27,532 nucleotides of DNA, taken from IMG/VR virus record IMGVR_UViG_3300021959_000311, positions 1-27,532 of that record; one strand, given 5' to 3'. Numbering within the stretch: the stretch's first letter is position 1; each line of letters starts with the position of its first letter. Positions 1,252-25,953 of the stretch are shown piece by piece. This DNA comes from a virus. Below the pieces are notes generated by a model that saw only the letters and a list, made by a program, of their open reading frames with translations, was not told where the DNA came from and did no database searches. Position numbers and translations under genes: made by a program.

Positions 1252-1259
1252 TATTTATT
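1252..1259 (-). promoter_or_regulatory. Late promoter element AATAAATA
   Basis: Minus-strand AATAAATA in the 30-base gap between the two gp26-like genes, only 6 bases before ATG 1245. If it works like a T4 late promoter the transcript would begin at or next to the start codon. Confidence 0.5.
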
Positions 1260-1275: not shown

Positions 1276-2169
1276 TCAACCCGCAAAACTTTGAGGATTC
1301 ATGAGATTCTTCTGTTTTTGCTTCTCGTGTTCCTTTCTCTCTTCTTCGAGCTCCTCCTTGTACATAGATATGTATGTATTAACTTCCGCGGGAGTCCGGC
1401 TATCGATATACTCTATCTGAAAATTCAATCTTTTGGCGAGTATGTACCTTGTATACAGCTGTTCATGTAGGTTCCCTTGATATATTAGCTTTATAAATTC
1501 AAAAAAAGAATTGTTGTACAGTTCCAAAGAAAAATTTGTTAGTTCGCCATTTTCATCAGGTACCTCGAGTATAGGTATATTGTAATTACTGTTAATGCGC
1601 TTTATGTTATTCACAATTTCACTAAAGAGTTCTGTTGAAAATGATTCTAACAATTGCTGCCTTTGATTGATTGTCATTTTTGTGAGATCATAAGATTTTC
1701 GTCCTAGTTTTATCTTATGTACTGTGTCATTTAGAATATCGTCTGATGTTACGTGTGTTAGTTTTAATGGTGATCCCATCAACACCGAGCATTTCTCGTT
1801 GATATTGACTTGTTGTATACATTTTTCCGGATGGTTAGAAACTTTATCTATAACATCATACAGATCTATTGCTGCTGTTCTATCCTCTGTATCACCTCCT
1901 TTGATTGACAGTTTTAATTGTTGTGAAACACAAACAATTCGCATATTCAACAACAAACAAAAAAGATCGACACGTGTTAACTTACTATACACTTGTTTAT
2001 CAACAAGCAAGTTTTTTACGAGGCTCGTTAGATATGTTTGTAGTTGTATATCGTCGTTATTTTGTATCAATTTAACAACATCTGTATACTGACCATATGA
2101 CATCTCATGACAATAATAAAAATTGTCTAAAGATGGTAAGTATGTTTTGTATGTAAACTTGTTTGTCAT
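1276..2169 (-). CDS. gp26/gp51-like baseplate hub or tail assembly protein, paralogue
   Basis: 297 aa. The N-terminus has the LPSLDNFYYCHEMSY segment, a short aromatic strand followed by helices. Residues around 67-90 (DLFCLLLNMRIVCVSQQLKL) recall the second helix-strand pair of gp26-like proteins. The middle has a helix (NQRQQLLESFSTELFSEI), and the C-terminus ends in a charged helix (EELEEERKEHEKQKQKN). Start ATG 2169 overlaps the TAA stop of the preceding gene by one base (TAATG), which implies translational coupling. With the next gene it makes a tandem pair of similar architecture between the tail tube genes and the tape-measure position. The family call rests on pattern and context, not on an alignment. 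Confidence 0.45.
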   Translation of the reverse strand: MTNKFTYKTYLPSLDNFYYCHEMSYGQYTDVVKLIQNNDDIQLQTYLTSLVKNLLVDKQVYSKLTRVDLFCLLLNMRIVCVSQQLKLSIKGGDTEDRTAAIDLYDVIDKVSNHPEKCIQQVNINEKCSVLMGSPLKLTHVTSDDILNDTVHKIKLGRKSYDLTKMTINQRQQLLESFSTELFSEIVNNIKRINSNYNIPILEVPDENGELTNFSLELYNNSFFEFIKLIYQGNLHEQLYTRYILAKRLNFQIEYIDSRTPAEVNTYISMYKEELEEERKEHEKQKQKNLMNPQSFAG

Positions 2170-3266
2170 TAATTATCAAGCTGGTTCCCACTATTTTGTG
2201 TGAATCTATCGGATACAAATGTGGATCTACTTGCAGATCTACCAGTTAATGCGCCCTCGCCTCTATCACCACCAATCTGATTCCGCTGGCCTCCGAAAGC
2301 TCCTAGAAAGCCTATCGCTTTGTTTACCTTCTTTTTTATATCAGCAGCCTTATCTACAAAACGCTCCACACTGGCCAATTTTTTCTTGAGTTTTCTATAA
2401 AATCTATTCTTGCTCAACAGTTTATCTGCCATATCCTTCACAAACTTCTTAAAACCTTCCTTGTTCATATATGCATTCATATCAGTCCTTGGTAGACTCT
2501 CCACTCCATAATGTGTATATTGCCATCTCACACTGCAAAGGAACACTTCATTGGCATCGTATGTCAATTCTTGTGCATTCATACCAATTGGTACGCAATT
2601 GTAGAAATGCCATATTTTTCTCTCAACTAATGGAATGTATTGATATGTTTTTGCTAATTGTATAATGCGTATATTTGTCTTGATGTTACGCTTGTTGTCC
2701 ATAGGTGGTCTAGCAACCATTCCCATGTGACTTGCTAACTGTATCCATGGGCGGACCACTAAATCCGGGAAGCTTCGATTCGTTTCTCGGAATTGTATTG
2801 TCAATTCTTGTGGCCCAGGTCGACTGGCGCCTATTTTACCAGGTATAAAGCCCATGTTGTTGTTTATAGCTAGTTCAGACACTGTGTATTGCTCTCCAGG
2901 TAATGTAACACCTTGAGCCAATATACAACCGGCATCTCCACCCGCTACCATGTAGGCATCACGTGTTATCTCCATTTTACCTTGATTGATATCCCACACA
3001 TCATTAGGTGTACCACTAGCATCAACATTACCTCCATGCTGACCGTTGCCTCCTGGTTCATAATTCCACATGGCTTGTGAGCTGATCATTTCCGGGATTG
3101 TTTCGATGTGTACCAGCCACAAAAACTTCATTGGAAACGCAAATTCCCATTTTTCTAGCTGTTGTAAGAAATTTTCTGTGTAACTATAGGGGTAATTGAA
3201 TGGAAAGATGTCTGTACCCAACAAATCATCCACCTTCTCACCTATTCTTCTGATATCGTCAAACAT
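2169..3266 (-). CDS. gp54/gp19-like tail-tube-fold protein (probable tube initiator)
   Basis: 365 aa. The core looks like the T4 tube fold: an early strand with the F-x-W-L-V-x-I-x-x-I-P pattern (residues about 48-58) and a late segment F-Y-N-C-V-P-I-G-M-N-A-Q-E-L-T-Y-D followed by a long strand (SVRWQYTHYGV). T4 gp54 has the same ending (CIPISV, ELSYD, VTFAY), so a baseplate-tail tube initiator role is the best guess. Residues about 285-365 are a basic helix and a Gly/Arg/Ser-rich low-complexity tail not expected in gp54. The start ATG 3266 has an ATTAAATA element 8 bases upstream and lies just after the terminator that ends the tube transcript. gp48 is the main alternative. Confidence 0.5.
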   Translation of the reverse strand: MFDDIRRIGEKVDDLLGTDIFPFNYPYSYTENFLQQLEKWEFAFPMKFLWLVHIETIPEMISSQAMWNYEPGGNGQHGGNVDASGTPNDVWDINQGKMEITRDAYMVAGGDAGCILAQGVTLPGEQYTVSELAINNNMGFIPGKIGASRPGPQELTIQFRETNRSFPDLVVRPWIQLASHMGMVARPPMDNKRNIKTNIRIIQLAKTYQYIPLVERKIWHFYNCVPIGMNAQELTYDANEVFLCSVRWQYTHYGVESLPRTDMNAYMNKEGFKKFVKDMADKLLSKNRFYRKLKKKLASVERFVDKAADIKKKVNKAIGFLGAFGGQRNQIGGDRGEGALTGRSASRSTFVSDRFTQNSGNQLDN

Positions 3267-3342: not shown

Positions 3343-3882
3343 TTAGAATCTGTTTTGTCTAACGAAGTGATATCCTAATGTCACATTGAATGTAACAGGA
3401 GCACCGGTGCCTTGAATGTTATAAGCAACTTCACCGACTTCAGTAGGATACGCACCAACCAATGTGAACTGTGCGACTCTTTCTAATTGTGAGTCAAGTT
3501 GCACCAAGTCAACAATTGATGTTTCTTTCGGCATGAAATAGTTACCAGTACTTGTCTCGTCATCAAATGTGTCTCTTGACCATGTGAGTAACAAGTTTCT
3601 TAGTGTGTCACCTCTGTCACAATAGAATGTCAAAGGATATGTACCTGAGTATGTTGCAGAACCTGGCACGTTAAAATTGAGACCCATATACGCTATTTGC
3701 GTACTGGCTATCGAACGTCCGGGAATGCTACCACCTTGGGCATATACTAGGTCATCTTCTGTAACAACGAAGCTACCATCACCATTTTGAATGTTAAGTA
3801 CTCTAAACTGAAAGTCACGGCTGAAATCTCTTTCTTGCGCTACTCTGTAGAAATCTGATATTGTTTGTCTTACGTCTGGCAT
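3343..3882 (-). CDS. 19: Tail tube protein (gp19-like)
   Basis: 179 aa, close to T4 gp19 (163 aa). It polymerises into the inner tail tube through which DNA passes. The N-terminus (RDFQFRVLNI) enters a strand, residues about 45-60 contain the short IPGRS loop typical of tube proteins, and the C-terminal half ends in alternating strands (VGAYPTEVGEVAYN, FNVTLGYHFVRQNRF) as in gp19. It lies directly downstream of the sheath gene, the order found in T4 (18-19). A strong ribosome binding site AAGGAG is at 3891-3896 on the minus strand, 8 bases before ATG 3882. A terminator follows it, giving a discrete abundant transcript. Confidence 0.85.
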   Translation of the reverse strand: MPDVRQTISDFYRVAQERDFSRDFQFRVLNIQNGDGSFVVTEDDLVYAQGGSIPGRSIASTQIAYMGLNFNVPGSATYSGTYPLTFYCDRGDTLRNLLLTWSRDTFDDETSTGNYFMPKETSIVDLVQLDSQLERVAQFTLVGAYPTEVGEVAYNIQGTGAPVTFNVTLGYHFVRQNRF

Positions 3883-3911: not shown

Positions 3912-6900
3912 TTAGGCTACCAATTCGCTGAAGTCTTGACCAGTTCTTGTGGCGTAGAAGTTCACCAAGATGAATTCTGCAGCACGAGTAGGTTTGATGT
4001 AAATATCAATTACCAACTCGTTCCGGTCAATAACATCAGGTGAGTTGTTTCTCTCGTCACACACTAGCAAGTAATCATACATTCCTTGTGTGTTTTTCAC
4101 CTCTTCAAATATTGGTCGCAACACGTTAAGTACTTGTGTTCTTGTGAACAGCGTGTTTGGTTCAAATACAAAGTATTTAACTGTGTTCATGGTCGCTTTT
4201 TGCAAGTACAAGAACAACCTCCTCACATTGATTCTATCAAACGCACTAGGTTTAGCTTGCATGGTCTTCTGACCAAATATCGCGTAACCTTCGTTCGGGA
4301 AGTTAGTGATTGGATTGAGACCAATTTTGTACAATTGATCACGTTCTTTTTGCTTGGGAAAGAAGGCTAAATCTTGTATTCCACTTACTAAACCGCGTGT
4401 GAACCCTGCTGGTGCAACCCATGGATAGAAGTTACTGTCAGTGTTCGCCATGGCGGCGGCAGCAAATCCACTCATCGGTACCCAGACACCTCTGTTCAAG
4501 GCTTTATCGTTTGTGAAGCCCCAGTTGGCGTATGTTGTACAATAACTACTGTTCTTTGCTCCACCGGTCATCATGTGACGTAATGGCCAGTAAATGTGTT
4601 GTGAGAAGTTAACACCAGCTTGGCGTTGTTTACTTGTCAATATTTTACTGTTTTTACCTTGTACGAAGATGTAACGTAACGGATCAGCAATGAAAATGTT
4701 GTCTTTACGTTGGAACTGACTGAAACTCTTGAATGTGTCAAAAATTACATCGTAATTCACCATGAAATCCATGGAGCTACGATTGTCAATCAATTTTGTT
4801 GTGTACAATCCATTACCACTCAATCCGGTGCTACTAACAATGAACTCTCCAATGTTGTAATACTCTTCATCATCATAACTTGTGTTTGTACCACCGTCAC
4901 TACCGACATATATTGTTCCTAAACCACCTTCACATGTGATATCAATTGGGAACAAGTCAAAATTGTCTGCTAGTTCAAATATACGATCTAGTTTTGCTGG
5001 AATATTTCCGGTTTCTTTAGCGGCAGCCAATTGTTGACGATAAACACCATGTGGATACACATTGTTACCGTGTTTCACTTGTGCTGTTTTGCTTCTCATC
5101 AATCCTTGCCAGGATTTGATGTATAGTCTATCCTCTTTCAACTCTGTGTCGTTCAAGAAAGCTTGTGTTACCTTGAAGTCTGTGACTTCCTGTGGGTAGA
5201 TTTTGTCGGCTTCACTCTCAATTTCAGCATAATAGCGTACATCCTTCGAAGGCATTACGCGAATTTTACGTGTTGGGTAGCCGTTCTCATCAAGCCAGTT
5301 ACCGGCATCTTTGGATATACCCTCGTTGAACTTGAGATACAAGTTGTTGCTGTTCTCGGCCTCACTTTCGATGAAGTAACTAGTAGCTGTACCACCTGTT
5401 GAAAGGAATCTTTCGCGGAAGTAGTTGACACTACCAATAACACTGTCAGAGACAAGATAATCTAGTTTGGTTGCATCTGGTTCTAGTGTTGATTGACGTA
5501 CTTTGAACACCGCGATTGTAAGAATGTCGCTGAACTCATCTGTGTTCAGGTCAAATTCGCTCAAATTCTCGAGAACTTCACTCATGCTACCATCTAAACC
5601 GACTTGTTGTTTGTTACCAAACTCATCGAACAAGAAACCAGCACTCAAACTGAATGTCAAGCGACTCTTAAGACCTTCACTTTCATCCGGTACATTCACG
5701 TATCCACCAGTGGTACCACCAAGTCTCTTACTCAAAGATTTGAGTTTACCGACACTATCAAAGTCTGTAGCTGGATTCAAGTTGGTGTTGTCAGAAATAC
5801 CCAGGTAATAACCTTCGAACTTCTCGTTGATGACATATTTCTTGTCGTTAACGATCATCATACCAGCTCCGCCCTTGGATATTAAGTCCTCAAATGACGT
5901 GAATTTCTGATTCTCAAATTTACCAGCATTATGGCCGCTCAATTTGATCTCACCTTTGATGGTCTTTTGAAAGCGGTCGTTGTCAAGCTCGATGTTGCTT
6001 GGCTCGCCAAGATAATAACGATCACTGGCGCTCAAATCCCATCCTACTGAATTGACTGCGGTTGCAACAAGATCAGCCACTTCTGGTGCTTCATAAGCTT
6101 GTAGAGCTGGAACAGATCCGAAATCTGGTGTCGCGCCTTCAGAATCCACAAGATCCTGATTGGTTACTTGCCAGAAACGATCCCCGTCTCCTGCGTCATC
6201 AACATATGTACTCAACGGCACACCAAATGTTTCACGATAATCAAGACCGGCGATCACACTGTCAACAGCGTCCTTGAGTGTTGTTGCAACATATCCTGCA
6301 CCTGGTGATGTTTCACCGAAGCGCCACTCACCAAATGGTATCACTTTTTTACTCAATCTACGATCCACACCACCGGCAAAGCTGAATGATGTGTCTGTGC
6401 TGATTGTGTCATCTGCAAAAGCTCCTTGTACTGTTATCGTGTCTCCTATATTTAATGTGGTTCCACCACCGGCGACGACAACAGCTGTGTGATCTCCAGC
6501 TCCGACCGTACCATTGGCGTTTGCCACCAGTTGATCTACCGTGTATGGATCACGACCACCAGTGAAACTTATTGCGGTACTATTCGGCATGGATACACCA
6601 CCTCCAGTGGTAGCTGTTACAATACCATTACCAAATTGTTCGTTAAGAAGATCCTGTGCTGTGGGTACATCTGCACCACCTGTCAATGCTATTGTTTGAT
6701 CATCACCGGCTGTGTTTCCTTGCACAACATATGCAGAAGCATCTGTTGCGGTGCCAGTCTCGACAATAGCATGTGCGCTGAAAATGTTGCTCAACGCGTC
6801 AGAGTTATTAAATGCGTATGTGTTTGATGTGTTTCCTGCTGCACCAGCTGCGTTGGCGGTGATTGTGATATCGATCTGTTCTAGACCGGCACCAAGTCCT

Positions 6901-7874
6901 TTATCAGCTGAAACAACACCTGTGAATGTGCTTGCCACTGCATCACGGCCTGTCAGATCCACATTGTTATCAGCACCATATGTGTTGGCAGTTGCCTCTA
7001 CTAATGTAGCTGGATCACCAGGTGTAACGTTGGCGCTCAATGTGGCGATCTCACCAGCTTCACCAACAATTGTAAATGTGTTGAGGGCTCCTGCTTCAAC
7101 AGTGTTGATCTCAACAGCACTCACCAGCCCGGTCGTGACATCTGTATGATTCGCATTGTATGTGCCGATGGTGTCATCTAATCCACCTTCTGCATACAAT
7201 TGTGTACCTAGATGTGTGTTTATTAAATTTGTTACGGTCGCGCCGTTGATTGTAGCTTCATCAACCTGTATGGTGAACTCGGTTCCATTCAGCTGAAACA
7301 GATCAGAACCGGCACCAGGTATGACACGCAATGTGTAGTCGTTGTACAGAGCACCTTTTTGCAACACCTTGGCAACGGTTGTTGGTGCTTGATTACTGTC
7401 TACTAGATTGGCGCTAGCGGATTGTGACAGCACTACATCTCCACGCTCGTCCACTTCCTCTGCATCCGCCGGAAACCATGCGATCATGCGCTCGTCTTTT
7501 TCGATTGATAGAACATCCGCGTTTGCAGCGTCTACCATGATTGGTCGAGGTATCACAGGATACACTTGCACGCTGTATTTATCAGCCACTGTGGCTCCAG
7601 CACCGGTACCGTAAGGTAGTCTTGACACCAGCACGTTGGCGGGGCTTTGAAACACCGCTTTGACCGTGTGGTACATGTACCGTTCAGCTGAGTTCTGGGG
7701 CAATCCATAGACTTGCTCGAACTCACTCAAGCTGCTTATTGTCAGCAGCTCGTCTGTGGGTCCTTGATTCGCAAATCCAGGGATAAACACCGTGGTTCCG
7801 ACAGGTAAATTAGGTCGCAAAGAGAGATCTACTTCTTTGACTTCTACTCCAGGAGATTGTATTGTTCTTGCCAT
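3912..7874 (-). CDS. 18: Contractile tail sheath protein (gp18-like), unusually large
   Basis: 1320 aa, about twice T4 gp18 (659 aa). The N-terminus (MARTIQSPGVEVKEVD) and next 90 residues are typical of sheath proteins (GTTVFIPGFANQGP, FEQVYG). The C-terminal 350 residues are also canonical (RRLFLYLQKAT, FEPNT, RPIFEEV, ending VNFYATRTGQDFSELVA). Between about residues 100 and 510 is an inserted region rich in Ala, Gly, Thr and Asp with recurring TGG-x-D motifs (TGGADVPTAQDLL 398-410, TGGRDPYTVDQLV 438-450, AGGVD 500-504). This probably forms surface domains on the outside of the sheath. The DNA of the insert looks richer in G+C than its flanks. A CATAAATA element lies 19 bases upstream of ATG 7874. 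Confidence 0.93.
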   Translation of the reverse strand: MARTIQSPGVEVKEVDLSLRPNLPVGTTVFIPGFANQGPTDELLTISSLSEFEQVYGLPQNSAERYMYHTVKAVFQSPANVLVSRLPYGTGAGATVADKYSVQVYPVIPRPIMVDAANADVLSIEKDERMIAWFPADAEEVDERGDVVLSQSASANLVDSNQAPTTVAKVLQKGALYNDYTLRVIPGAGSDLFQLNGTEFTIQVDEATINGATVTNLINTHLGTQLYAEGGLDDTIGTYNANHTDVTTGLVSAVEINTVEAGALNTFTIVGEAGEIATLSANVTPGDPATLVEATANTYGADNNVDLTGRDAVASTFTGVVSADKGLGAGLEQIDITITANAAGAAGNTSNTYAFNNSDALSNIFSAHAIVETGTATDASAYVVQGNTAGDDQTIALTGGADVPTAQDLLNEQFGNGIVTATTGGGVSMPNSTAISFTGGRDPYTVDQLVANANGTVGAGDHTAVVVAGGGTTLNIGDTITVQGAFADDTISTDTSFSFAGGVDRRLSKKVIPFGEWRFGETSPGAGYVATTLKDAVDSVIAGLDYRETFGVPLSTYVDDAGDGDRFWQVTNQDLVDSEGATPDFGSVPALQAYEAPEVADLVATAVNSVGWDLSASDRYYLGEPSNIELDNDRFQKTIKGEIKLSGHNAGKFENQKFTSFEDLISKGGAGMMIVNDKKYVINEKFEGYYLGISDNTNLNPATDFDSVGKLKSLSKRLGGTTGGYVNVPDESEGLKSRLTFSLSAGFLFDEFGNKQQVGLDGSMSEVLENLSEFDLNTDEFSDILTIAVFKVRQSTLEPDATKLDYLVSDSVIGSVNYFRERFLSTGGTATSYFIESEAENSNNLYLKFNEGISKDAGNWLDENGYPTRKIRVMPSKDVRYYAEIESEADKIYPQEVTDFKVTQAFLNDTELKEDRLYIKSWQGLMRSKTAQVKHGNNVYPHGVYRQQLAAAKETGNIPAKLDRIFELADNFDLFPIDITCEGGLGTIYVGSDGGTNTSYDDEEYYNIGEFIVSSTGLSGNGLYTTKLIDNRSSMDFMVNYDVIFDTFKSFSQFQRKDNIFIADPLRYIFVQGKNSKILTSKQRQAGVNFSQHIYWPLRHMMTGGAKNSSYCTTYANWGFTNDKALNRGVWVPMSGFAAAAMANTDSNFYPWVAPAGFTRGLVSGIQDLAFFPKQKERDQLYKIGLNPITNFPNEGYAIFGQKTMQAKPSAFDRINVRRLFLYLQKATMNTVKYFVFEPNTLFTRTQVLNVLRPIFEEVKNTQGMYDYLLVCDERNNSPDVIDRNELVIDIYIKPTRAAEFILVNFYATRTGQDFSELVA

Positions 7875-7929: not shown

Positions 7930-8511
7930 TTACAACAAAATTGGGGTGAGCTTAGAAAAAGAGAATTCAAACGTTGTGTCTATTGGATCCGGTGAGCGAT
8001 AATTGTAATCAATCTGACCTAAACTCACTGGTATCAATCCAAAATAATCGAATCTCATCACAGACTTGTTGTATTCATCCTTAGGGTACAAGCTAGCTGC
8101 ACCTTGATATTTCTTAAACATAGATTCAGTCATTGACACTGGATCTCCTTTGCTAAACACACTATCATTATCATCATTCATAATGTCTAACCATTTCCAG
8201 ATGACCCAATAGTTGTTGAATCGGTTGTCAATGGTGAAGTTTACAGTGACATTAGTGTATGCTGGGCGACTGTGTGAGCTGAATTTCACAGCTTGCCCTC
8301 CATATCGTATCTCTCCACTACCCACTTGTATGGATGGTAACACCACACCATACACACTAAATTGTAGGGTGTCAGGTATCACTCGATCATCCTGTCGGTT
8401 CTCCGGTTGAGAATACGCGATGTCTTTCATTGCATCCGGTAGTGTGAGTACAAAAGTAAATTTATCTTTGCGGCTCTTGTTGTAAACAGATTGTTGTATC
8501 AAATCACTCAT
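7930..8511 (-). CDS. Tail-tube-fold protein between terminase and sheath (gp19 paralogue)
   Basis: 193 aa from ATG 8511 (MSDLIQQSVYNKSR). An upstream in-frame ATG at 8523 exists, but 8511 forms an ATGA overlap with the terminase stop and is preferred. A beta-rich protein: residues about 40-75 carry strands with the LPSIQVGSGEIRYGG loop, and the C-terminal part reads FDYFGLIPVSLGQIDYNY then a final strand (FEFSFSKLTPILL). That resembles the closing strands of gp19 and gp54. A short helix with W-x-W (VIWKWLDIMN) also fits the tube fold. It could be a minor tube, completion or neck-tail joining protein. Its place between gp17 and gp18 differs from T4, where the two are adjacent. Confidence 0.6.
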   Translation of the reverse strand: MSDLIQQSVYNKSRKDKFTFVLTLPDAMKDIAYSQPENRQDDRVIPDTLQFSVYGVVLPSIQVGSGEIRYGGQAVKFSSHSRPAYTNVTVNFTIDNRFNNYWVIWKWLDIMNDDNDSVFSKGDPVSMTESMFKKYQGAASLYPKDEYNKSVMRFDYFGLIPVSLGQIDYNYRSPDPIDTTFEFSFSKLTPILL

Positions 8512-10241
8512 AAAAATGTCCATCCTTGTTCTTGTAGGTCTGTAACTTCTTTGTCATAAAATGTAGGGTCATCGCCGTTGTCACTGTCAATATATATAGG
8601 TAACGTGCTGTAATTGGATCTCACCTCGTCTTGATACATTGATAATGTGTTGCTAAAATATCTCTCACCATAATCCAATCGATCAATTATTGCCGGTTTG
8701 TTGTGCTTGTCTGTTTCAACAACTTCGAAATACTGCTCGGTGATACCGGTTTCAAGTATCATCAGAGCCCATATCAAACTCATTACTCGGTCGTCCTGCA
8801 CGCTTGTTCCTTTGATTGCTTTCCATGTTCCGTTTGGGTATCTCACGAATGTTTTTAGCTCTTCTAATGTTTCATTATCATGTAATACGACAGAGTATAT
8901 CTCACTTAACCAGTATTTCATGTTCATCACACCTTTGTATTTTGTGTTTGTGTGTGCTATCACTCCTGGTCTTTCGATTGGTTGATTTTTACTAGGAGAA
9001 TAGTTCACTATGTTCTCATAACCGTGTACATTGGCAAGTGTGTCCACCACCTGTGCGCCGCAATTGTTACGTTCAATCAACGCCGGCGGACTGCCCCATT
9101 GTTGTAATATTTCCAGTAGTTTGGTAGTAAAATTATACGGGCTTATTTGATTGCTATGGTAGATTGCGACTTGCTCAATTTCTGTGAGATCTGTTATGTC
9201 TAGAACCTGAATCACACTAGCGGCGTCTCCAACACCTTCTGCGATGTCCACGCCAACTGAATATGTTCTGGTGTCATCCGGTAGTTTCCAAACGTGATAA
9301 TCACCATCTTCAAATATATGTGTTGGTTTGGATATTGTTAATGAGGTTTTCCGGATTAACTCATCATCCAGAACACTCTCTCCAGTTTCGATGAACTGAC
9401 AACCGAATTCTTGATCGAATATTTGTGTGCTACCGAGTGATTTGATCGTGTCTTGTTTCCATTTATCGTCTCTTCCAGGGATCTCCCACCAATCGATTCG
9501 ACTAGATGTCCAGTTGTTGTTACCTTTGACTGCGTTACTATATATATCATGAAACAGATTACCAGTACCGTTAGGGGTGCTGGCGATGAATATTTTACTC
9601 TTCTTACTAGATGATATTATAGGGTACACAGATTTCCAAAAACTTTCAACTAAATGATTATCGATGAAGGCTAGCTCGTCTAGCACTAAGCAGTTACAAC
9701 TATCTCCTCTTCCAGCGTCGCTACTGGTAGTTGAGATGCCGATACTACTACCATTCGTGAGAGTCATGCTGGTTTTACCATACTCCACCACCCCGGGTTT
9801 GAGCCAGTTTGGTAGTTGTTCATACGCTAAACGTATTCTTTTAAATATGTTTATGGCGGTCTGCTCTTTATTGGCTACTACTAATATTCGTTGATCCTCA
9901 CTGAAACATGCCACCCAGAGTGTGTATATTGTCATCATGGTCGTTTTGCCGACCTGTCGGCTCGCTAACACAATATTGAATCGATTGTCTCTCAACGCTC
10001 TTAAAACACGTTTTTGGCATTTATGTAGTGAAATCTTTTCCCTGCCTCTGTCCAGATTTATTATAGTGAAGAAATTTTCTGCAAAGAATAATAAGTTTTT
10101 CTCACATTTCTTGAGATCTGACACCATTTTGGGTGACCATTCAAATTCAGCCTTTTCGGTAGGTAGATTTTTATTACCTAAATACAAGTGCTTTGAATTA
10201 ACTTGTTGTTTTTTTCCGGTAGTTTGAGATTTAGTAGACAT
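8508..10241 (-). CDS. 17: Terminase large subunit (gp17-like)
   Basis: 577 aa from ATG 10241 (MSTKSQTTGKK); a TTG two codons upstream is less likely. It is the packaging motor that pumps DNA into proheads and cuts concatemers. Numbered from 10241, the ATPase domain has Walker A SRQVGKTT (94-101), Walker B LVLDE (185-189) and a coupling segment IASTPNG (about 219-225). The RNase H-like nuclease domain has three acidic sites: VGVDIAEG (D332), ERNNCGAQ (E390) and DDRV (483-484). Length matches T4 gp17 (610 aa). The stop overlaps the start of the next gene (ATGA). A CATAAATA element lies 10 bases upstream, and the divergent plus-strand gene begins at 10259. Confidence 0.95.
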   Translation of the reverse strand: MSTKSQTTGKKQQVNSKHLYLGNKNLPTEKAEFEWSPKMVSDLKKCEKNLLFFAENFFTIINLDRGREKISLHKCQKRVLRALRDNRFNIVLASRQVGKTTMMTIYTLWVACFSEDQRILVVANKEQTAINIFKRIRLAYEQLPNWLKPGVVEYGKTSMTLTNGSSIGISTTSSDAGRGDSCNCLVLDELAFIDNHLVESFWKSVYPIISSSKKSKIFIASTPNGTGNLFHDIYSNAVKGNNNWTSSRIDWWEIPGRDDKWKQDTIKSLGSTQIFDQEFGCQFIETGESVLDDELIRKTSLTISKPTHIFEDGDYHVWKLPDDTRTYSVGVDIAEGVGDAASVIQVLDITDLTEIEQVAIYHSNQISPYNFTTKLLEILQQWGSPPALIERNNCGAQVVDTLANVHGYENIVNYSPSKNQPIERPGVIAHTNTKYKGVMNMKYWLSEIYSVVLHDNETLEELKTFVRYPNGTWKAIKGTSVQDDRVMSLIWALMILETGITEQYFEVVETDKHNKPAIIDRLDYGERYFSNTLSMYQDEVRSNYSTLPIYIDSDNGDDPTFYDKEVTDLQEQGWTFL

Positions 10242-10245
10242 TATC

Positions 10246-10253
10246 AATAAGTA
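10246..10253 (+). promoter_or_regulatory. Late promoter-like element AATAAGTA (rightward)
   Basis: Plus-strand AATAAGTA, 5 bases before GTG 10259. It overlaps the leftward element at 10252-10259, so the two promoters share one 14-base near-palindrome. Confidence 0.4.
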
Positions 10254-10259
10254 TTTATG
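10252..10259 (-). promoter_or_regulatory. Late promoter element CATAAATA before terminase
   Basis: Minus-strand CATAAATA, 10 bases before ATG 10241 of the terminase gene. It overlaps the rightward element of the divergent gene by two bases. Confidence 0.6.
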
Positions 10260-11056
10260 TGAACGAAACTAAAGATATCAAGGCACTAGAGAGTATGTAT
10301 ACCACACTGTATGAAAATAATGAAGACAACAAAGTCTGGAAAAAAGGTGATTGTCCGGAGGTCCTAGGAGATTCTGAACTAGCGCATCAGCTCAAACCAG
10401 AAGAAAATAGGCCGGAAAATGCGGATGAGGATGCAATCGAACCGGATGACGAAAATGAGCTGTATGTGAAGAAAATTAGTGAACGGTTAGAAAAGGGAAA
10501 AAAATCCGGGAAAAATGTCAACGAACAAATAAATAATTCTAGAATTATGAGCAACGAACCTAAAAACATTTTTGATAAATTATATGACACAATCATGGAA
10601 GGTGATGATCCTTTTGGTGACCTGGACGGTATGAACGATGAGTTAGATGCCGGCGGAGAGGACACCGAAAGTGGTGATAGCCTTGATCTTGGTGGAGATG
10701 AAGTTACATTCACACTACCCCGGGATATAGCAGAAAAGCTTCATGACGTACTGATGGATCAACTCGGTGGAGATGATGAAGAGATGGATTCCATTGAAGA
10801 TATGGATGACGAGGGTGAAGATAGTATGCTAGGTGATGCTGTTGTATCAGAACCAGAACCAAAAGCTTGTGCAGATGGTACTGGAAAAATGACCGGTCAT
10901 GACAACAAAGTAGCTTTGACAGCTGATGGTGGCAAAGCTGACGGTGGCGATGTTAAAGAAGATCCAGAACCGAAACCTTTAGCGGATGGTAAAGCAAAAC
11001 TACAAGGTAAGGATAACAAGGTTCATAATCCAAAAAGTTCCGGTTTGCTCAAATAA
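10259..11056 (+). CDS. Acidic probable virion or scaffold protein with duplicated C-terminal repeat
   Basis: 265 aa from GTG 10259; ATG 10295 (MYTTLYEN) is an alternative, but the GTG keeps a helical leader (DIKALESMYTTLYE). The function is not recognised. It is very acidic, especially residues 115-195 (runs of D and E), and has no cysteine except C32 and C203. Two L/I-x-E sites that fit T4 prohead protease (gp21-type) cleavage are visible: LYE 17-19 before N, and IME 112-114 before G, the second at the end of a helix starting at an internal Met. Residues 198-219 and 235-257 are a tandem duplication of the pattern PEPK-x2-ADG-x2-K-x2-G-x-DNKV. A prohead core or internal head protein is the best guess. 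A strong terminator follows at 11088. Confidence 0.7.
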   Translation: MNETKDIKALESMYTTLYENNEDNKVWKKGDCPEVLGDSELAHQLKPEENRPENADEDAIEPDDENELYVKKISERLEKGKKSGKNVNEQINNSRIMSNEPKNIFDKLYDTIMEGDDPFGDLDGMNDELDAGGEDTESGDSLDLGGDEVTFTLPRDIAEKLHDVLMDQLGGDDEEMDSIEDMDDEGEDSMLGDAVVSEPEPKACADGTGKMTGHDNKVALTADGGKADGGDVKEDPEPKPLADGKAKLQGKDNKVHNPKSSGLLK

Positions 11057-11087
11057 AAAAATTTCCCCCACCAACTAAAAATAAAAG

Positions 11088-11113
11088 AGCCGTTCATTTG
11101 AACGGCTTTTTTT
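11088..11113 (+). terminator. Rho-independent terminator overlapping the next late promoter
   Basis: Perfect stem AGCCGTTCA/TGAACGGCT followed by seven T (11107-11113). The last T is also the first base of the TATAAATA element for the next gene. It lies 32 bases after the stop of the acidic protein gene. Confidence 0.9.
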
Positions 11114-11120
11114 ATAAATA
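11113..11120 (+). promoter_or_regulatory. Late promoter TATAAATA, exact T4 consensus
   Basis: Exact TATAAATA, 6 bases before ATG 11127. It is the only perfect T4-consensus copy among the promoters listed here and anchors the reading of the other variants. Confidence 0.7.
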
Positions 11121-11126
11121 TTATCG

Positions 11127-11516
11127 ATGACACTATACGAACAATCGTTTTGGAGACAATTAGATGAGTTCAGCAGCTTGCAACATAATGGACCAGATGC
11201 ACGTAACGCTAAACATGATCGTGTGAGTGTTAATCCTACAAACAAGAACCAGCACCAAGTTGCAGGGCAGTATCAATACAGATTGAAGAATGGTGAGCGA
11301 GTGGAGCGTGGTGAGTTAAACAGCAAAATAGAAGCTATCAGAAGCAACCAGGCGAATACAAAAATCTTGTCACCCATGGATATACAGTATATCAAAAAAG
11401 AATATCAAATCGATCTTACAGACGATGAACCTAAGGAGTTAGGTAATTCTGGGATGGTTGTACACGTAGATAAGACAGGTATACAAAAAGTTTACAAATT
11501 GACAAAAAAGACATGA
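11127..11516 (+). CDS. Small late protein of unknown function upstream of neck protein
   Basis: 129 aa. The start ATG 11127 lies 6 bases after TATAAATA. Not recognised. The N-terminus (MTLYEQSFWRQLDEFSS) is an amphipathic helix carrying L-Y-E and L-D-E motifs. Residues 20-60 are polar and Asn/Gln-rich; residues 70-100 are helical (ELNSKIEAIRSNQ, DIQYIKKEYQIDL); the last 20 residues form a probable hairpin ending in basic residues (VYKLTKKT). The stop overlaps the next start (ATGA), so it is translationally coupled to the gp14-like gene and is probably a virion or head-completion component. Confidence 0.7.
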   Translation: MTLYEQSFWRQLDEFSSLQHNGPDARNAKHDRVSVNPTNKNQHQVAGQYQYRLKNGERVERGELNSKIEAIRSNQANTKILSPMDIQYIKKEYQIDLTDDEPKELGNSGMVVHVDKTGIQKVYKLTKKT

Positions 11517-12256
11517 GTGAGTTGGATGATATTTTTAAAAATAATTGCGGTTTTCGTTTTCTAGATAAACAAGCAAATGTTAATGAAAGAGAAAACTACA
11601 AGGGTTGGTGGTTAGAACAAATATATCAGTATGGTACGATTGTAGATTTTTATACAAACAACACAACAACAGACACAATGGATCCATTGTATGGTGAAGA
11701 ACCGACACAAGTGTTCTCGGACCCGAAGAAGCTTATTTTTGCATTAACCTTGAATGAAAATAGTGTGGTGTTACAAAAATTCGGCTTGATGGCTGATGAT
11801 GAACTCACTGGTTTTATTCCTATCGAGAGTTACACGCTGGCCATGAGTTCTACAGACAATCCGTATCCAGAACCTAAAGCTGGAGATGTTATAGAACTGT
11901 CGGAGTTCGGTTGTAGTCGACCGGGAGGGAGAGGTCCTAAAAAGTTTGAAATAACTGAAAGATTGGACCAAGATGTTGAATTGATGAATCCATTGTTAGG
12001 TCATTACGTGTGGCTGATTAAGGGTAAGCGCTTCGATTATAGTTATGAGCAAGGTATCACACGAGAACCAGCATTAGAGCAACCAACAGACGATACATAT
12101 CATGGAGGATTGAGCGCCGATGATTATGGTTACGAGTATGAAACAGAAGATGACACACTATATTTTAATGATGTTGACCGGCAGAGTAGAAACATCTTTG
12201 ATTACAGTGTGTATGGTGACTATGATGATATTTACGGTGGTTATGTTGATGACTAG
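11513..12256 (+). CDS. 14: Neck protein, gp14-like
   Basis: 247 aa, against 256 aa for T4 gp14, which joins the filled head to the tail. The pattern agrees with gp14 proteins of marine T4-like phages: YGTIVDFYTNN (40-50), DPLYGE (57-62), FGLMADDELTGFI (90-102), PKAGDVIELSEFG (121-133), then FEITE and the segment LLGHYVWLIKGKRFDYSYE (161-179). The C-terminal 60 residues are acidic and Tyr-rich. The first base of the ATG overlaps with the stop of the upstream gene (ATGA). The gene lies near the terminase gene, as neck genes 13-15 do in T4, but on the opposite strand. Its TAG shares the CTAG palindrome with the stop of the convergent minus-strand gene. Confidence 0.6.
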   Translation: MSELDDIFKNNCGFRFLDKQANVNERENYKGWWLEQIYQYGTIVDFYTNNTTTDTMDPLYGEEPTQVFSDPKKLIFALTLNENSVVLQKFGLMADDELTGFIPIESYTLAMSSTDNPYPEPKAGDVIELSEFGCSRPGGRGPKKFEITERLDQDVELMNPLLGHYVWLIKGKRFDYSYEQGITREPALEQPTDDTYHGGLSADDYGYEYETEDDTLYFNDVDRQSRNIFDYSVYGDYDDIYGGYVDD

Positions 12257-12588
12257 TCTGTACGATCAATTATACTGTTACTGTAATTGGGTATAGTTTC
12301 TCCTTTGATTTCACTGATGAATCGATCACCTTGGCTCAGATTGTCGAACTCTAGTGTGATTCTTGATTCGCCAGGGGCGGTAAAAACATAACACACCTTG
12401 TTATGTTCATTTTTATGAACTCGTACAAGTGTGTACGGTAGATTGTGTTTTAATTGTTCTCTCTGTTTTTTAAATAGCGTACCACGCGATGATTTCATGT
12501 CTCGGATTTGACTGCTGGTCATACCAGGTTGTATTCTACCAACAGATCTATCGGAGATAGTTATAGTTACTCCTGGTATGTAGTGCAC
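12253..12588 (-). CDS. Conserved-looking phage protein of unknown function
   Basis: 111 aa. Not recognised. The N-terminus (MHYIPGVTITISDRSVGRIQPGMTSSQI) looks like a short beta segment followed by a turn of the kind seen in DNA- or RNA-binding beta folds. The middle is basic (KSSRGTLFKKQREQLKHNLPY). The C-terminal half is probably beta (YTLVRVHKNEH, VCYVFTAPGESRITLEF). It overlaps the preceding gene by 22 bases and is the last gene of a leftward unknown block; its stop overlaps that of the convergent gp14-like gene. Confidence 0.7.
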   Translation of the reverse strand: MHYIPGVTITISDRSVGRIQPGMTSSQIRDMKSSRGTLFKKQREQLKHNLPYTLVRVHKNEHNKVCYVFTAPGESRITLEFDNLSQGDRFISEIKGETIPNYSNSIIDRTD

Positions 12589-12857
12589 AGCTTTTCTTTT
12601 TGTAAGTCTGATTCAATTTCAAATAGCATGCTTTCCGTACGTTCATCAATATATTTTTGTATTGCTATTGGTTTAACCCAATTGACGTTACTACTCTTGA
12701 CACCTAGTTGTTTTGATTTTTGATCAATAATGTCAACAGCCTCAATGAGCGACATCCATCTCGCTACCTCATATTCAGACAGGACATGTGTTGTATCTTT
12801 TTTGTTTAGAGAGTCAAACTCTCTGTATGTATTTTTGTGTTTCTCTATATCAATCAT
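12567..12857 (-). CDS. Small alpha-helical protein of unknown function
   Basis: 96 aa, with no recognised domain. Almost entirely helical and charged by eye, with one Trp-rich helix (YEVARWMSLIEAVDIIDQKSKQLGV). A second helix near the end (IDERTESMLFEIESDLQKEKL) may form a coiled coil. It overlaps both neighbours by a few bases, so it is part of a translationally coupled leftward block. Confidence 0.65.
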   Translation of the reverse strand: MIDIEKHKNTYREFDSLNKKDTTHVLSEYEVARWMSLIEAVDIIDQKSKQLGVKSSNVNWVKPIAIQKYIDERTESMLFEIESDLQKEKLCTTYQE

Positions 12858-13284
12858 GGTAAAAATTTTTAATTACTTTCAAAAGATATCCAGCTAGATT
12901 TGCTACAAATACTTTGTCACTATCGTTCGTATCGTATTGCTTTAATGATTTATTTAACATTTGTATACCTTGGCATAATTGTTTGAAATTTTTCTTTTCC
13001 TCTGGAGACATTCTTTTAGATGAGCAATAATTATACACTAAATCGTTCAAATTGCACAACAAATCAATATTTGTATAATCTTCACTGATATTTTTACTGT
13101 AACCTTGCTTGAAGCTCTCAAAACATTCATAATCCTTCTGCCGAAAGAAATTGAAGAGTGTCTTGTTGAGTGTATTGAACGACATTACGTCACTACTGGC
13201 ATCCGGAACGATTGTAGTCGCAGGTTTACTTGTTGCTTGCTCTATAACTAAGTTATTTTCTTCTGATTGTTTTTGTTGCATCAA
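12850..13284 (-). CDS. Small helical protein of unknown function
   Basis: 144 aa. Not recognised. A polar N-terminal 35 residues is followed by helical segments with many aromatics and cysteines (LFNFFRQKDYECFESF, LLCNLNDLVYNYCSSK, NFKQLCQGIQML). The Cys residues are not arranged as a zinc site. The start overlaps the preceding membrane protein gene by 32 bases and the end overlaps the next gene by 8. Confidence 0.65.
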   Translation of the reverse strand: MMQQKQSEENNLVIEQATSKPATTIVPDASSDVMSFNTLNKTLFNFFRQKDYECFESFKQGYSKNISEDYTNIDLLCNLNDLVYNYCSSKRMSPEEKKNFKQLCQGIQMLNKSLKQYDTNDSDKVFVANLAGYLLKVIKNFYHD

Positions 13285-13699
13285 TTTTTTCCTTTACATA
13301 TGAACTCACATTTAATGACTGTTTGTCTATAATTTGTGTTTTTTGTGCTATGGTTATATCAACATAAACGGAGTTATCTTTGTTACATTCTGTACAATTA
13401 AATTCATTATCATCATCAAGTTTTATTGGTATGAAGTTCGATGCATTACAATATGCGCAGATTGCATCCACGCCTTGTTCCATAAATGATGTGATTCGTT
13501 CTGTCTCTTCACGTTCCCGTGCGACATTTAAACGATATTCTAAAAATGAATTCCACATGTAAAACATAATAAACTGAGCTGCTATACAAACTAAAAACCA
13601 ATCTAAAAACACTAAAGAAAATGCGTGACTGATTATTAAACTTAGAGCTGTAGCAACAGCAACAGTCTTAATTAAAGACAGGATTATCTGTTTGAACAT
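13253..13699 (-). CDS. Membrane-anchored zinc-ribbon protein
   Basis: 148 aa. Two hydrophobic segments at about residues 5-30 and 32-50 form a hairpin with a very short turn, so both ends are likely cytoplasmic. A charged helix (56-75) leads to a zinc-ribbon-like domain with C81-x2-C84 and C102-x2-C105, then a polar tail ending in basic residues. The function is unknown; the design would place a metal-binding module on the inner face of the host membrane. It starts just after the stop of the 147-aa gene and overlaps the next. Not a standard T4 gene as far as I recognise. Confidence 0.7.
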   Translation of the reverse strand: MFKQIILSLIKTVAVATALSLIISHAFSLVFLDWFLVCIAAQFIMFYMWNSFLEYRLNVAREREETERITSFMEQGVDAICAYCNASNFIPIKLDDDNEFNCTECNKDNSVYVDITIAQKTQIIDKQSLNVSSYVKEKIDATKTIRRK

Positions 13700-13700
13700 T

Positions 13701-14144
13701 TTATGCGTGATCTTCAGGAGTACGCGTACCGATCCCTGGTACGGCGAGGTCGTCTATATCTTTAACAACGCTCTGTATTGCGCTACCTATAGTCGCGAGT
13801 TTTTTTATAATTTTCATAGTCACTTTTTTAGCAGTTTCATTATCTTTAATAATACTGAATTTTTCATATTCTGCAACTTTATCTTTTATGTGTGTGCAGT
13901 CTACATATAGTTGACCTAGTTGATCTGATAAGCCGTCTTGTAGTGGATATGGTAATCGGTTTGGTGCTTTTTCCATCTCACCTTCCCAGTCCTTTGCCTG
14001 TTTAACCAGATCCATTAAAGTAACCTTGCCGGGCTTCAGTTGCATAGCTGATTGCCCGGGGCCACCACCTACACCTAAATAATTGTTAGAACCTACCTGT
14101 AAATCTTCAAATAGTGTGTGTTTTTTGTTTTTTTCTGGATCCAT
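13701..14144 (-). CDS. Late protein of unknown function, divergent late promoter
   Basis: 147 aa from ATG 14144 (MDPEKNKKHTLFEDLQ). An in-frame ATG at 14150 lies inside the promoter palindrome and is less likely. Not recognised. An L-F-E motif at residues 11-13 could be a prohead-protease site, although Asp follows. A Gly-rich segment (YLGVGGGPGQSAMQ) is followed by helices (VTLMDLVKQAKDWEGEMEKAP, QLGQLYVDCTHIKDKVAEYEKF, KKVTMKIIKKLATIGSAIQSV). The minus-strand CATAAATA lies 9 bases upstream, so expression is expected late. Confidence 0.7.
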   Translation of the reverse strand: MDPEKNKKHTLFEDLQVGSNNYLGVGGGPGQSAMQLKPGKVTLMDLVKQAKDWEGEMEKAPNRLPYPLQDGLSDQLGQLYVDCTHIKDKVAEYEKFSIIKDNETAKKVTMKIIKKLATIGSAIQSVVKDIDDLAVPGIGTRTPEDHA

Positions 14145-14147
14145 GAT

Positions 14148-14161
14148 CATAAATATTTATG
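14148..14161. promoter_or_regulatory. Palindromic divergent late promoter CATAAATATTTATG
   Basis: A perfect 14-bp palindrome that reads CATAAATA on both strands. The leftward copy (14154-14161) is 9 bases from ATG 14144. The rightward copy (14148-14155) could serve the plus-strand gene at 14186, which also has its own closer element. Confidence 0.6.
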
Positions 14162-14168
14162 CAGTACA

Positions 14169-14176
14169 AATAAATA
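14169..14176 (+). promoter_or_regulatory. Late promoter element AATAAATA
   Basis: Plus-strand AATAAATA, 9 bases before ATG 14186. The intervening bases include AAAGG, a usable ribosome binding site only if the transcript starts close to the element. Confidence 0.55.
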
Positions 14177-14185
14177 TTTAAAGGT

Positions 14186-14620
14186 ATGAATATATTTCGA
14201 TCAAGATTTTTTAACATGTTAAATGAAGCTCCGGAGGATCTCCCGACCGATCCTACGCTCGACGCTGAACAACAGGCGGTCGCGACCACAATGGAGCCAC
14301 AGACTGATGTGAGCCAATTAGATGTGCCGGACAACCCGGAGATTGCTCTCAAACAACAGCAGAGTGCCAGAACAATACAAACACTAGAGACGTGGATTGG
14401 TGAAGTTGAAAACTTTATTGATTATCTCAACGGTACAGAAGAAGGATCCATTAACTATACTCTCAATTCTTCAGATTGTGACAGTTTGCTGACTGATGTT
14501 CAACGTAGTGAGAGTAAAAAAATCAGCCGGTTGGCGCAAGATATGTCAAGTCTTAGTGAGTCATTAAAGCAATACCTCATGCTCGCCAGACGAAAAGAAA
14601 CATCTAGAGATTCTATCTGA
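14186..14620 (+). CDS. Small probable virion protein with cleavable-looking N-terminus
   Basis: 144 aa. Not recognised. The N-terminus (MNIFRSRFFNMLNEAPEDLP) is a short basic-aromatic helix ending in L-N-E before A, matching the L-x-E rule for T4-type prohead protease and so resembling a capsid-targeting peptide. Residues 20-50 are acidic and Pro/Gln-rich; residues 55-140 are helical (ARTIQTLETWIGEVENFIDYL, SKKISRLAQDMSSLSESLKQYL), possibly a coiled coil. It stands alone on the plus strand between two leftward blocks, behind a late promoter, and its end overlaps the primase gene by 8 bases. Confidence 0.7.
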   Translation: MNIFRSRFFNMLNEAPEDLPTDPTLDAEQQAVATTMEPQTDVSQLDVPDNPEIALKQQQSARTIQTLETWIGEVENFIDYLNGTEEGSINYTLNSSDCDSLLTDVQRSESKKISRLAQDMSSLSESLKQYLMLARRKETSRDSI

Positions 14621-18634: not shown

Positions 18635-18642
18635 GTATGTAT

Positions 18643-19380
18643 TTAACCCACATAGCCGGAAGATACAACCATTATAGTTGTGTCTTCAGTATCTATTTTG
18701 AATAAAAACACATTTAACTCCGGATTTATGTTTATTGTCAATTTCTCAAAACGTATTGAACTGACAATTCTAATTGTCTCGAAACTTAGCGCGAGTTCTT
18801 TCGCTAATTGCTCTCCTGTATATTTATCCGCGACTTGTAGTGTGAAGCTATCGACATTATGTCTTTGCCTGTCAGTCAAACTGGCGTACACTTGTGAATC
18901 CTTTGTGTAAAAATATATTTTATTAGTATCTGTTGTAAAGGTACTACCTTTCACGAGTTGATTGATCGTGTTACTGTCAATTTCGAATCGAAAACTAAAA
19001 TCAATATTTTTAATTTTGTTTATATCTACAGATGGTGGTTCAATAATACCGTCCTCGAGTAAGTGATACTTAAACCCTACATTTTTGGATTTATATTCTA
19101 TATTATTATTGTTATATAGTAACTCTACAGTCTCATCAGTGATACATGATAGCACCTTGACCAACTTGTTTATATCTGGTATATTTAAATAAACGGTCTC
19201 TGTAACATCATTGACTTGCTTCATCGAACATGTGACAATCAACGTACCGTCACTACTTGTACTCAACGAAAATAACTCAGATGGTCTGACTTTAATTACA
19301 GTATTTTCGGTGAGCTTTCCTATAGGGGATAGAAAGTTGTTTATAAATCCATTTTTACTATTTAGTTTTATCTGGGACAT
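18643..19380 (-). CDS. 45: Sliding clamp, gp45-like
   Basis: 245 aa (T4 gp45 is 228 aa). It forms the trimeric ring that holds the polymerase on DNA and, in T4, also activates late transcription together with gp33 and gp55. The sequence has the two-domain clamp pattern: N-terminal KLTENTVIKVRPSELFSL with a strand-rich first half, then a second half with SFRFEIDSNTINQLVKG and LALSFETIRIVSSI. The C-terminal strand ends IMVVSSGYVG. Its start overlaps the preceding gene by 23 bases. Together with the T4-like late promoters in the window, it suggests clamp-activated late transcription here too. Confidence 0.8.
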   Translation of the reverse strand: MSQIKLNSKNGFINNFLSPIGKLTENTVIKVRPSELFSLSTSSDGTLIVTCSMKQVNDVTETVYLNIPDINKLVKVLSCITDETVELLYNNNNIEYKSKNVGFKYHLLEDGIIEPPSVDINKIKNIDFSFRFEIDSNTINQLVKGSTFTTDTNKIYFYTKDSQVYASLTDRQRHNVDSFTLQVADKYTGEQLAKELALSFETIRIVSSIRFEKLTININPELNVFLFKIDTEDTTIMVVSSGYVG

Positions 19381-23780: not shown

Positions 23781-24451
23781 TGATAGTTACGTAAAAACGT
23801 TTGTTGAGATCTAAGGAATGATTTATCGTTCAAGTTTCTTAAGCCTGGGCTGTGATGCGTTACATGTATAGGGTATGTTCCCATTTTTAATTTTTTGTTG
23901 TTTGCATCAATACAGCTGGCTATATCGTAATGATGATAGAGGTAATCCTCGTTGAATTTCCAACCCACTTCCAACACACGTTTCAAATCGACAGCTAAAA
24001 ACAAACCATCTAGTATTAAACATCTACTAGGCCATGGACCAAAACTAGTTACAAATGTTTTTGAACTGTTATCCATCGAATGTGACACAGCTCCAGACCA
24101 GCTTTGCTGTGATGACATTCTATGCCACAATGCTGGTTCTGAGATTTTTATTTCTTTTGCTCCTGCTAAACCAACTATATCGTAGTTCATGTTTTCAATT
24201 GCCGCGTACAGCTTGCCTTTGAGCTTCAAGTCGTCAATAAAAACATCATCATGTACAAACAATACAATGTCATGTTTGATTAAATTCTCAGGTGTTATGT
24301 ACCTGTTATAACATTCAGAAAGTCCTTTCTTGTTGTTCGCTACAATTACTAATGATACATCGTCTTTTAAACCGTTTAATGAATTTACTAATTGTGTGTT
24401 TTTACCATCACCTTTCGTGCATGTGACGACTAATATTTTTTTCATTTTCAT
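23777..24451 (-). CDS. Glycosyltransferase-like protein (GT-A fold, StrF-like)
   Basis: 224 aa. The start ATG 24451 overlaps the stop of the amidotransferase gene (ATGA); a second ATG at 24445 is possible. The N-terminus KKILVVTCTKGDG is a first strand of a nucleotide-sugar fold. The metal-binding-like motif FVHDDVFIDD (65-74) takes the place of the DxD motif. A later acceptor region has LILDGLFLAV (145-154), then YLYHHYDIASC (170-180) and HVTHHSPG (196-203). These patterns match small phage glycosyltransferases related to the StrF domain. The target could be modified DNA bases or a virion or cell-surface glycan. Operon position with queC makes DNA a testable option, not a conclusion. Confidence 0.65.
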   Translation of the reverse strand: MKMKKILVVTCTKGDGKNTQLVNSLNGLKDDVSLVIVANNKKGLSECYNRYITPENLIKHDIVLFVHDDVFIDDLKLKGKLYAAIENMNYDIVGLAGAKEIKISEPALWHRMSSQQSWSGAVSHSMDNSSKTFVTSFGPWPSRCLILDGLFLAVDLKRVLEVGWKFNEDYLYHHYDIASCIDANNKKLKMGTYPIHVTHHSPGLRNLNDKSFLRSQQTFLRNYQ

Positions 24452-25158
24452 AAAAAGAATGGACTGTTACTTTCAAACTCTCCGCATGTGGCAAGCCCCT
24501 CGCTCGTCACACAATATATTACACCTTCCTTGAGCTCTGTTTTGCACATGTCACATCTTGTTGAGCTAAAATCACCTGTCATTATATTACCGTACAAAGT
24601 ACTACCACTGCGCACAATATATGTATCACCTGTTAATTTACTATAAATCCAACATGCAAATGTACCTTTCAACATATTACACACTTCCTGTATTGCTTTC
24701 ACTTCCGGGGTATCCGTTACGGTTCCATTATCATGTACACTGTCGTTAAATTCGAACACATATGATAATAACACAGGTATAACAGAACTATCAACCGGGT
24801 TATCATGAACACCTATATTTTCTTTTATCAACTGCTCTGTGTTTTCTAGGACACCGTTATGTGCCACAATATAATGTATGCTGTTGAATGGGTGGCTAGT
24901 AGAAGGGCTGAATTTTCTTTGAGCGCTAGTAGGCGCTTGTGTGTGTCCTAGGAATTGCTCGTATTCCTGCTGAAAGGCATAATCGCCTGTCAAATTTGTT
25001 GTGCTGGGTTGCTTTCTCACATATGTCTCTTTAATGAGACCAGGATTGACAGTATTCTTAATGTACACGCTACCATAGGAAAATGTGCCCCGTTGTTTGT
25101 TAATGTTGTATAACTGCTCATACACATAAAAATTATGACTTCCAAATATACCGCACAT
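24448..25158 (-). CDS. Class-II glutamine amidotransferase, QueC partner
   Basis: 236 aa. The start MCGIFG places the catalytic Cys2 at the N-terminus after Met removal. Further class-II marks are GHTQAPTSA (71-79), VAHNGVLEN (98-106), and the D123-S pair (PVDSS) followed by a G-x-F-A-C segment (about 165-169). Near the end is a C202-x2-C205 pair. It releases ammonia from glutamine for a partner synthase, which it lacks itself. The queC gene ends 37 bases upstream, so the pair probably acts together, like the amidotransferase-QueC fusions described in some phages. It has its own sigma-70-like promoter. Confidence 0.85.
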   Translation of the reverse strand: MCGIFGSHNFYVYEQLYNINKQRGTFSYGSVYIKNTVNPGLIKETYVRKQPSTTNLTGDYAFQQEYEQFLGHTQAPTSAQRKFSPSTSHPFNSIHYIVAHNGVLENTEQLIKENIGVHDNPVDSSVIPVLLSYVFEFNDSVHDNGTVTDTPEVKAIQEVCNMLKGTFACWIYSKLTGDTYIVRSGSTLYGNIMTGDFSSTRCDMCKTELKEGVIYCVTSEGLATCGEFESNSPFFL

Positions 25159-25945: not shown

Positions 25946-25953
25946 AATAAATA
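25946..25953 (+). promoter_or_regulatory. Late promoter element AATAAATA
   Basis: Plus-strand AATAAATA, 5 bases before ATG 25959, divergent from the early-type queC promoter in the same 52-base gap. Confidence 0.55.

Follow-up and report, generated by a model that had tools for sequence, protein, structure and literature searches.

Can one short symmetric sequence serve as the late promoter of two genes transcribed away from each other? Two elements in a 27.5-kb piece of an uncultured T4-like myovirus (the window, meaning the whole stretch of DNA analyzed here) raise this question. A preliminary description reported a perfect 14-bp palindrome, CATAAATATTTATG, at 14148-14161 and a related near-palindrome, AATAAGTATTTATG, at 10246-10259, and both are present with exactly these sequences at these coordinates. 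It further read each as a late element on both strands, lying between divergent late genes and accessible to only one polymerase at a time, and hence as a possible switch. Both sites do lie between divergent genes; those flanking 14148 can be called late only presumptively.

The virus, its relatives and its late-promoter machinery

The window carries genes for the terminase large subunit, tail sheath, tail tube, baseplate hub, primase and a DnaB-type helicase, together with a single-strand binding protein and a UvsX-like piece. No DNA-level match to it was found among GenBank phages, and its terminase is 31-37% identical to those of cultured T4-like phages. Related terminases occur on 67 viral contigs, with identities of mostly 77-100% in a near clade, about 55-63% in a far clade and 32-35% in distant relatives. 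No tRNAs were found in the near clade, hence they offer no hint of the host, and a first scan of genome contigs for a host returned no match. An alignment scan recovered one Verrucomicrobia-labelled MAG contig (L141/L146, CAIYYI010000011.1) with a 48%-identical terminase and AATAAATATTTATG nearby; as a single, possibly misbinned contig on a very long branch, it was rejected as a host clue.

The tail sheath gene (3912-7874, minus strand) encodes 1320 aa, with the sheath-family match confined to the last ~210 residues; its L008 and G005 orthologues fall short of this length, at 1151 aa and about 857 aa, and T4 gp18 has 659 aa. Three genes belong to the tail-tube family phrog_45 (2169-3266, 3343-3882 and 7930-8523, minus strand), one of them between terminase and sheath. 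A glutamine-amidotransferase-like gene adjoins a QueC-like gene (24448-25158 and 25196-25906, minus strand), a pair that possibly points to 7-deazaguanine DNA modification.

Homologues of gp55 (phrog_234) are encoded by four relatives (G001, G002, G003 and G005; E values of 7e-30 to 2e-35), and no gp55 gene was identified within the 27.5-kb window. Among these records, which are partial genomes, gp45 was found in G005 and G006 only. Boxes of 8 bp close to TATAAATA precede the terminase, sheath and neck-region genes (Table 1).

Table 1. Coordinates of the two sites, their flanking genes and further late boxes in the window
Feature	Position	Strand	Remarks
Terminase large subunit (gp17-like)	8508..10241	-	phrog_5989 3.6e-57; Pfam Terminase_6N 1.9e-15
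Site 1, near-palindrome AATAAGTATTTATG	10246..10259	both	Putative overlapping divergent late promoters: terminase (-), head-region gene (+)
Late box AATAAGTA of + gene	10246..10253	+	5 nt before GTG 10259; predicted +1 = 10259 (leaderless)
Late box CATAAATA of terminase	10252..10259	-	10 nt before ATG 10241; predicted +1 = 10246 (5-nt leader)
Acidic 265-aa gene	10259..11056	+	GTG start conserved; near head-closure-like gene
Late box TATAAATA	11113..11120	+	6 nt before ATG 11127
Conserved 147-aa gene	13701..14144	-	Start as in orthologues
Site 2, perfect palindrome CATAAATATTTATG	14148..14161	both	Two overlapping late boxes
Late box CATAAATA of gene 13701-14144	14154..14161	-	9 nt before ATG 14144; predicted +1 = 14148 (4-nt leader); orthologues TATAAGTATTTATTGAAC-ATG
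+ half of palindrome	14148..14155	+	At most an additional promoter further upstream for gene 14186 (leader of 25 nt)
Separate late box AATAAATA of gene 14186	14169..14176	+	9 nt before ATG 14186; 21 bp beyond palindrome
Conserved 144-aa gene	14186..14620	+	Conserved
Late box AATAAATA	1252..1259	-	6 nt before ATG 1245
Late box GTTAAATA	18640..18647	-	5 nt before ATG 18634
Late box AATAAATA	25946..25953	+	5 nt before ATG 25959; leaderless spacing

Two palindromes, each of two late boxes

In each 14-mer, a T4-type late box of 8 bp on one strand overlaps its counterpart on the other by the 2 central bp; a palindrome is thus shared by two boxes, as proposed, and the boxes themselves are offset rather than identical. 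In site 1, two pairs break the symmetry: the outermost and an inner one (AAGTA on the plus strand, AAATA on the minus strand). The symmetric 12-mer ATAARTAYTTAT occurs exactly twice in the 27.5 kb, at these two sites, and in 400 order-1 shuffles its mean count was 0.02 and never two. The looser 10-mer TAARTAYTTA has four copies in the window against 0.45 expected. It is rare in long relatives (one in 98 kb, two in 88 kb, four in 82 kb), and the only two cores of the 88-kb relative (G002) are the two orthologous sites. In the near clade, YTTA follows 12 of 35 divergent-pair boxes and 2 of 71 boxes elsewhere (Fisher p 2e-5, a value to be read with the genomes being related and a shared site counted for both of its genes, so that the observations are not independent). 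Lacking a G+C-rich stem, the palindrome was rejected as a terminator or hairpin.

Site 1 provides the stronger case for sharing. Its symmetric element has a readable box on either strand, each at a workable distance from the start codon of its gene (gaps, counted in nucleotides between box and start, of 5 on the plus and 10 on the minus strand), and the 17-nt gap between the two genes contains no other late box for either. The TAARTAYTTA core, R/Y aside, is kept in all 15 distinct terminase sites of the near and sister clades. In the 14 near and sister sequences that were tabulated (terminase strand: CACMTAARTAYTTA), every position of the core is fixed except for transitions at R and Y, and variation is free from the second base after it. 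In a tree of 44 terminases, these 15 near and sister rows have the core, and neither the far clade, with its 22 rows, nor two intermediate rows do. A sixteenth match comes from a MAG contig whose branch is very long, and lies in a different context. The far clade lacks a palindrome at this junction and has a separate box for each direction, so that the near and sister clades have a single overlapping site in place of the two boxes of the far clade. The conserved GTG at 10259 (GTGAA) aligns with ATGAAT in the far clade, the box ending 5 nt before the start in both; an alternative start of the plus gene at ATG 10295 was set aside in its favor. TAAGTA at gap 5, the form found here, is enriched in the near clade. 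Conservation supports the view that site 1 is a true bidirectional late promoter. The idea of one element serving divergent genes, with polymerases excluding each other, thus fares well at site 1, where both halves are conserved at workable spacing with no other box, and less well at site 2.

A further late box lies inside the plus gene of site 1, at 10528-10535 (plus strand), 11 nt before an in-frame ATG at 10547, and about ten near relatives have it in the same position (TAAATAMTTC...ATGAGC). It is probably an internal promoter for a short isoform, and this putative promoter resembles one annotated for T4 gene 17.

Site 2 tells a more qualified story. The preliminary description took the palindrome at 14148 for a late element on both strands; the part that stands is its putative role as promoter of the minus gene, for the plus gene has a box of its own at 14169-14176, which had been overlooked. 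Orthologous boxes (TATAAATA, CATAAATA or GATAAATA) occupy the same place in the near relatives that have this region. Read on the plus strand, the palindrome has TAAATA in the majority of near relatives and TAATTA in one of them (L008/L112) and in most relatives at 44-54%; since the plus half is lost in some relatives, it appears optional, perhaps providing an extra upstream start. The evidence at 14148 is weaker than at site 1 and suggests mainly a promoter of the minus gene, with the plus half at most a second upstream start. ATG 14150 was rejected as the start of the minus gene, since its orthologues start at the position of 14144; ATG 14150 would lie upstream of the predicted +1.

If only one strand were active at each site, the palindrome would be a by-product of the AT-rich sequence that follows a box (box plus TTTATG or a GTG start). 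The dispensable plus half of site 2 fits such an account, as do two palindromic cores that lack evident sharing: the 14169 box of the window and AATAAATATTTAT-GTG at a divergent pair in a relative (G005:C1:70895-70904), where each gene has a separate box and a palindrome by itself is consequently no proof of sharing. Two observations nonetheless make this account decidedly unlikely in our estimation, namely the scarcity of YTTA after non-divergent boxes relative to divergent ones and, at site 1, a plus gene with no other box and two halves kept at all 15 distinct near and sister sites. If the palindrome were an operator through which a dimeric repressor or activator switched both genes, instead of or besides the two boxes, its dyad symmetry would be explained, and so would its strong conservation, for the most part at two sites. 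At site 1, however, both halves fit the box seen across the clade and stand at functional distances from start codons, the far clade has the same halves as separated, nonpalindromic boxes, and variation at R and Y breaks the perfect symmetry of site 1 in most genomes; we judge an operator very unlikely.

Box-to-start spacing and predicted leaderless mRNAs

Close spacing is a property of the clade at large. Start codons were assigned by a simple gene caller and by conservation, the caller having misplaced the 14186 start and some others; the counts below come from related genomes and are not independent. TAAATA before start codons peaks at gap 5 (31 of 313 near genes and 43 of 289 far genes), gap 6 being next, and the far clade has nearly no boxes at gaps 0-4. 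With TAAGTA included, TAARTA at gap 5 precedes 40 of 313 near and 43 of 289 far genes against about 0.2 expected from internal ATG/GTG codons. Additional contigs, intermediate relatives among them, show peaks at 5-6 and 9 nt, and the gap-5 peak is absent from G009, a more distant T4-like record. At gap 5 or 6, T4, Thanatos-1, ACG-2014h, phiM9 and Cr30 have zero boxes and HTVC008M has two; in the first five, most boxes lie 20-39 nt from the start. A Shine-Dalgarno-like (SD-like) motif accompanies just 1 of 117 gap-5/6 genes of the clade, as against 10 of 11 genes in T4 and 14 of 14 in Thanatos-1 with boxes 12-40 nt away.

The T4 late box spans -13 to -6 (PMC1524935), and a gap of 5 therefore puts +1 on the start codon. 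By T4 geometry, many late mRNAs of the clade are predicted to be leaderless, and spacings of 9-10 nt would give short leaders rather than strictly leaderless messages. Sigma70-like TATAAT sequences peak at gap 6, one base beyond the late boxes, as sigma70 geometry predicts, and many have a TTGA-type sequence about 17 bp upstream. The arrangement of TTGA, 17 bp and TATAAT about 6 nt before the start is found clade-wide, for example upstream of the gene at 25196-25906 (minus strand), and early genes too look leaderless. Two apparent promoter classes with peaks one base apart, each fitting its own geometry, are the strongest internal support for this prediction. A -10 element at start-codon distance with no SD motif is the leaderless signature, and it is found in the clade and differs from what cultured T4-like phages have. 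It is most improbable that TAAATA is instead an A/U-rich translation initiation signal with the true promoters further upstream: the clade has few SD motifs, a trait also of bacteria with A-rich initiation contexts, but the sharp minimum at gap 5, the separate TATAAT peak at gap 6 with its TTGA-type -35 about 17 bp upstream and the gp55 homologues all fit promoters. We found no papers on leaderless T4-like phages or on palindromic T4 late promoters among the open-licence papers searched.

Proposed mechanism and comparison with known systems

We think it probable, from the sequence comparisons above, that this clade puts gp55-type boxes near start codons, that site 1 acts in both directions but in one at a time, and that site 2 is mainly the promoter of its minus gene. 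NNTAARTA boxes, with no -35 element, would sit about one -10-to-start distance from the start codon, and many late mRNAs would begin at or within about 5 nt of it. With box and start packed so closely, divergent starts 17 nt apart would have overlapping boxes, an overlap that palindromy (TAARTAYTTA) would achieve. At 10246-10259, RNA polymerase with the late sigma would load in either orientation and melt nearly the same stretch, beginning either the leaderless mRNA of the head-region gene at 10259 or the terminase mRNA, with its 5-nt leader, at 10246. Because the predicted +1s are 13 bp apart and both open complexes would form in nearly the same segment, one polymerase would be accommodated at a time. 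At 14148-14161, the minus gene would be the main client, the plus gene being served by the 14169-14176 box. We infer start sites, lateness, two-way activity and exclusion alike.

In T4, the polarity of the loaded gp45 clamp sets the direction of late activation, and the same polarity could control direction here; for a replication-coupled activator, clamp orientation would, if this is true, offer a natural and testable control. The boldest version, a widespread lineage with mostly leaderless early and late mRNAs in which clamp polarity, that is, replication direction, picks the gene at a two-way terminase/head junction promoter, we hold to be rather unlikely. The leaderless signature, if true, would mean that a T4-like clade present in many aquatic samples expresses much of its gene content independently of Shine-Dalgarno initiation; it would say something about the host of the clade, and standard gene callers may misplace the clade's starts.

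The box is that of the T4-type late promoter (gp55/gp33/gp45; consensus TATAAATA at -13 to -6), likewise with no -35 element; its first base varies as in RB49, KVP40 and S-PM2 (PMC1524935, PMC2984593), and a gp55 homologue is present in relatives, as in the T4-type system. The clade differs in its box-to-start distance (typically 5-11 nt without SD, mostly 20-39 nt in T4-type phages), in its tolerance of the TAAGTA variant and in the overlapping palindromic pair. In leaderless mRNAs such as those of mycobacteria (PMC4633059), the promoter element likewise puts +1 at the start codon; here the arrangement is deduced from sequence, for early and late genes of a T4-like phage. Two-way promoters are documented for sigma70-type sites, and a conserved one made of T4-type late boxes would extend this use of symmetry to a phage sigma and a replication-coupled activator. 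Sigma70 bidirectional promoters have symmetric -10 elements with starts usually 18, also often 10 or 23, bp apart (PMC12825309, PMC10268837); simultaneous binding is sterically excluded (PMC12825309), and, basal activity being low, the two directions hardly interfere with each other as long as neither is activated (PMC12825309, PMC10268837). Mutual exclusion is established for these promoters, not for T4-type late promoters. Site 1 resembles them in its one short symmetric element of -10 type, its expected two-way starts and its capacity for one polymerase at once. Unlike them, it is a late-sigma element of two 8-mers overlapping by 2 bp, with a predicted start separation of 13 bp, and both of its predicted products are mRNAs of conserved genes.
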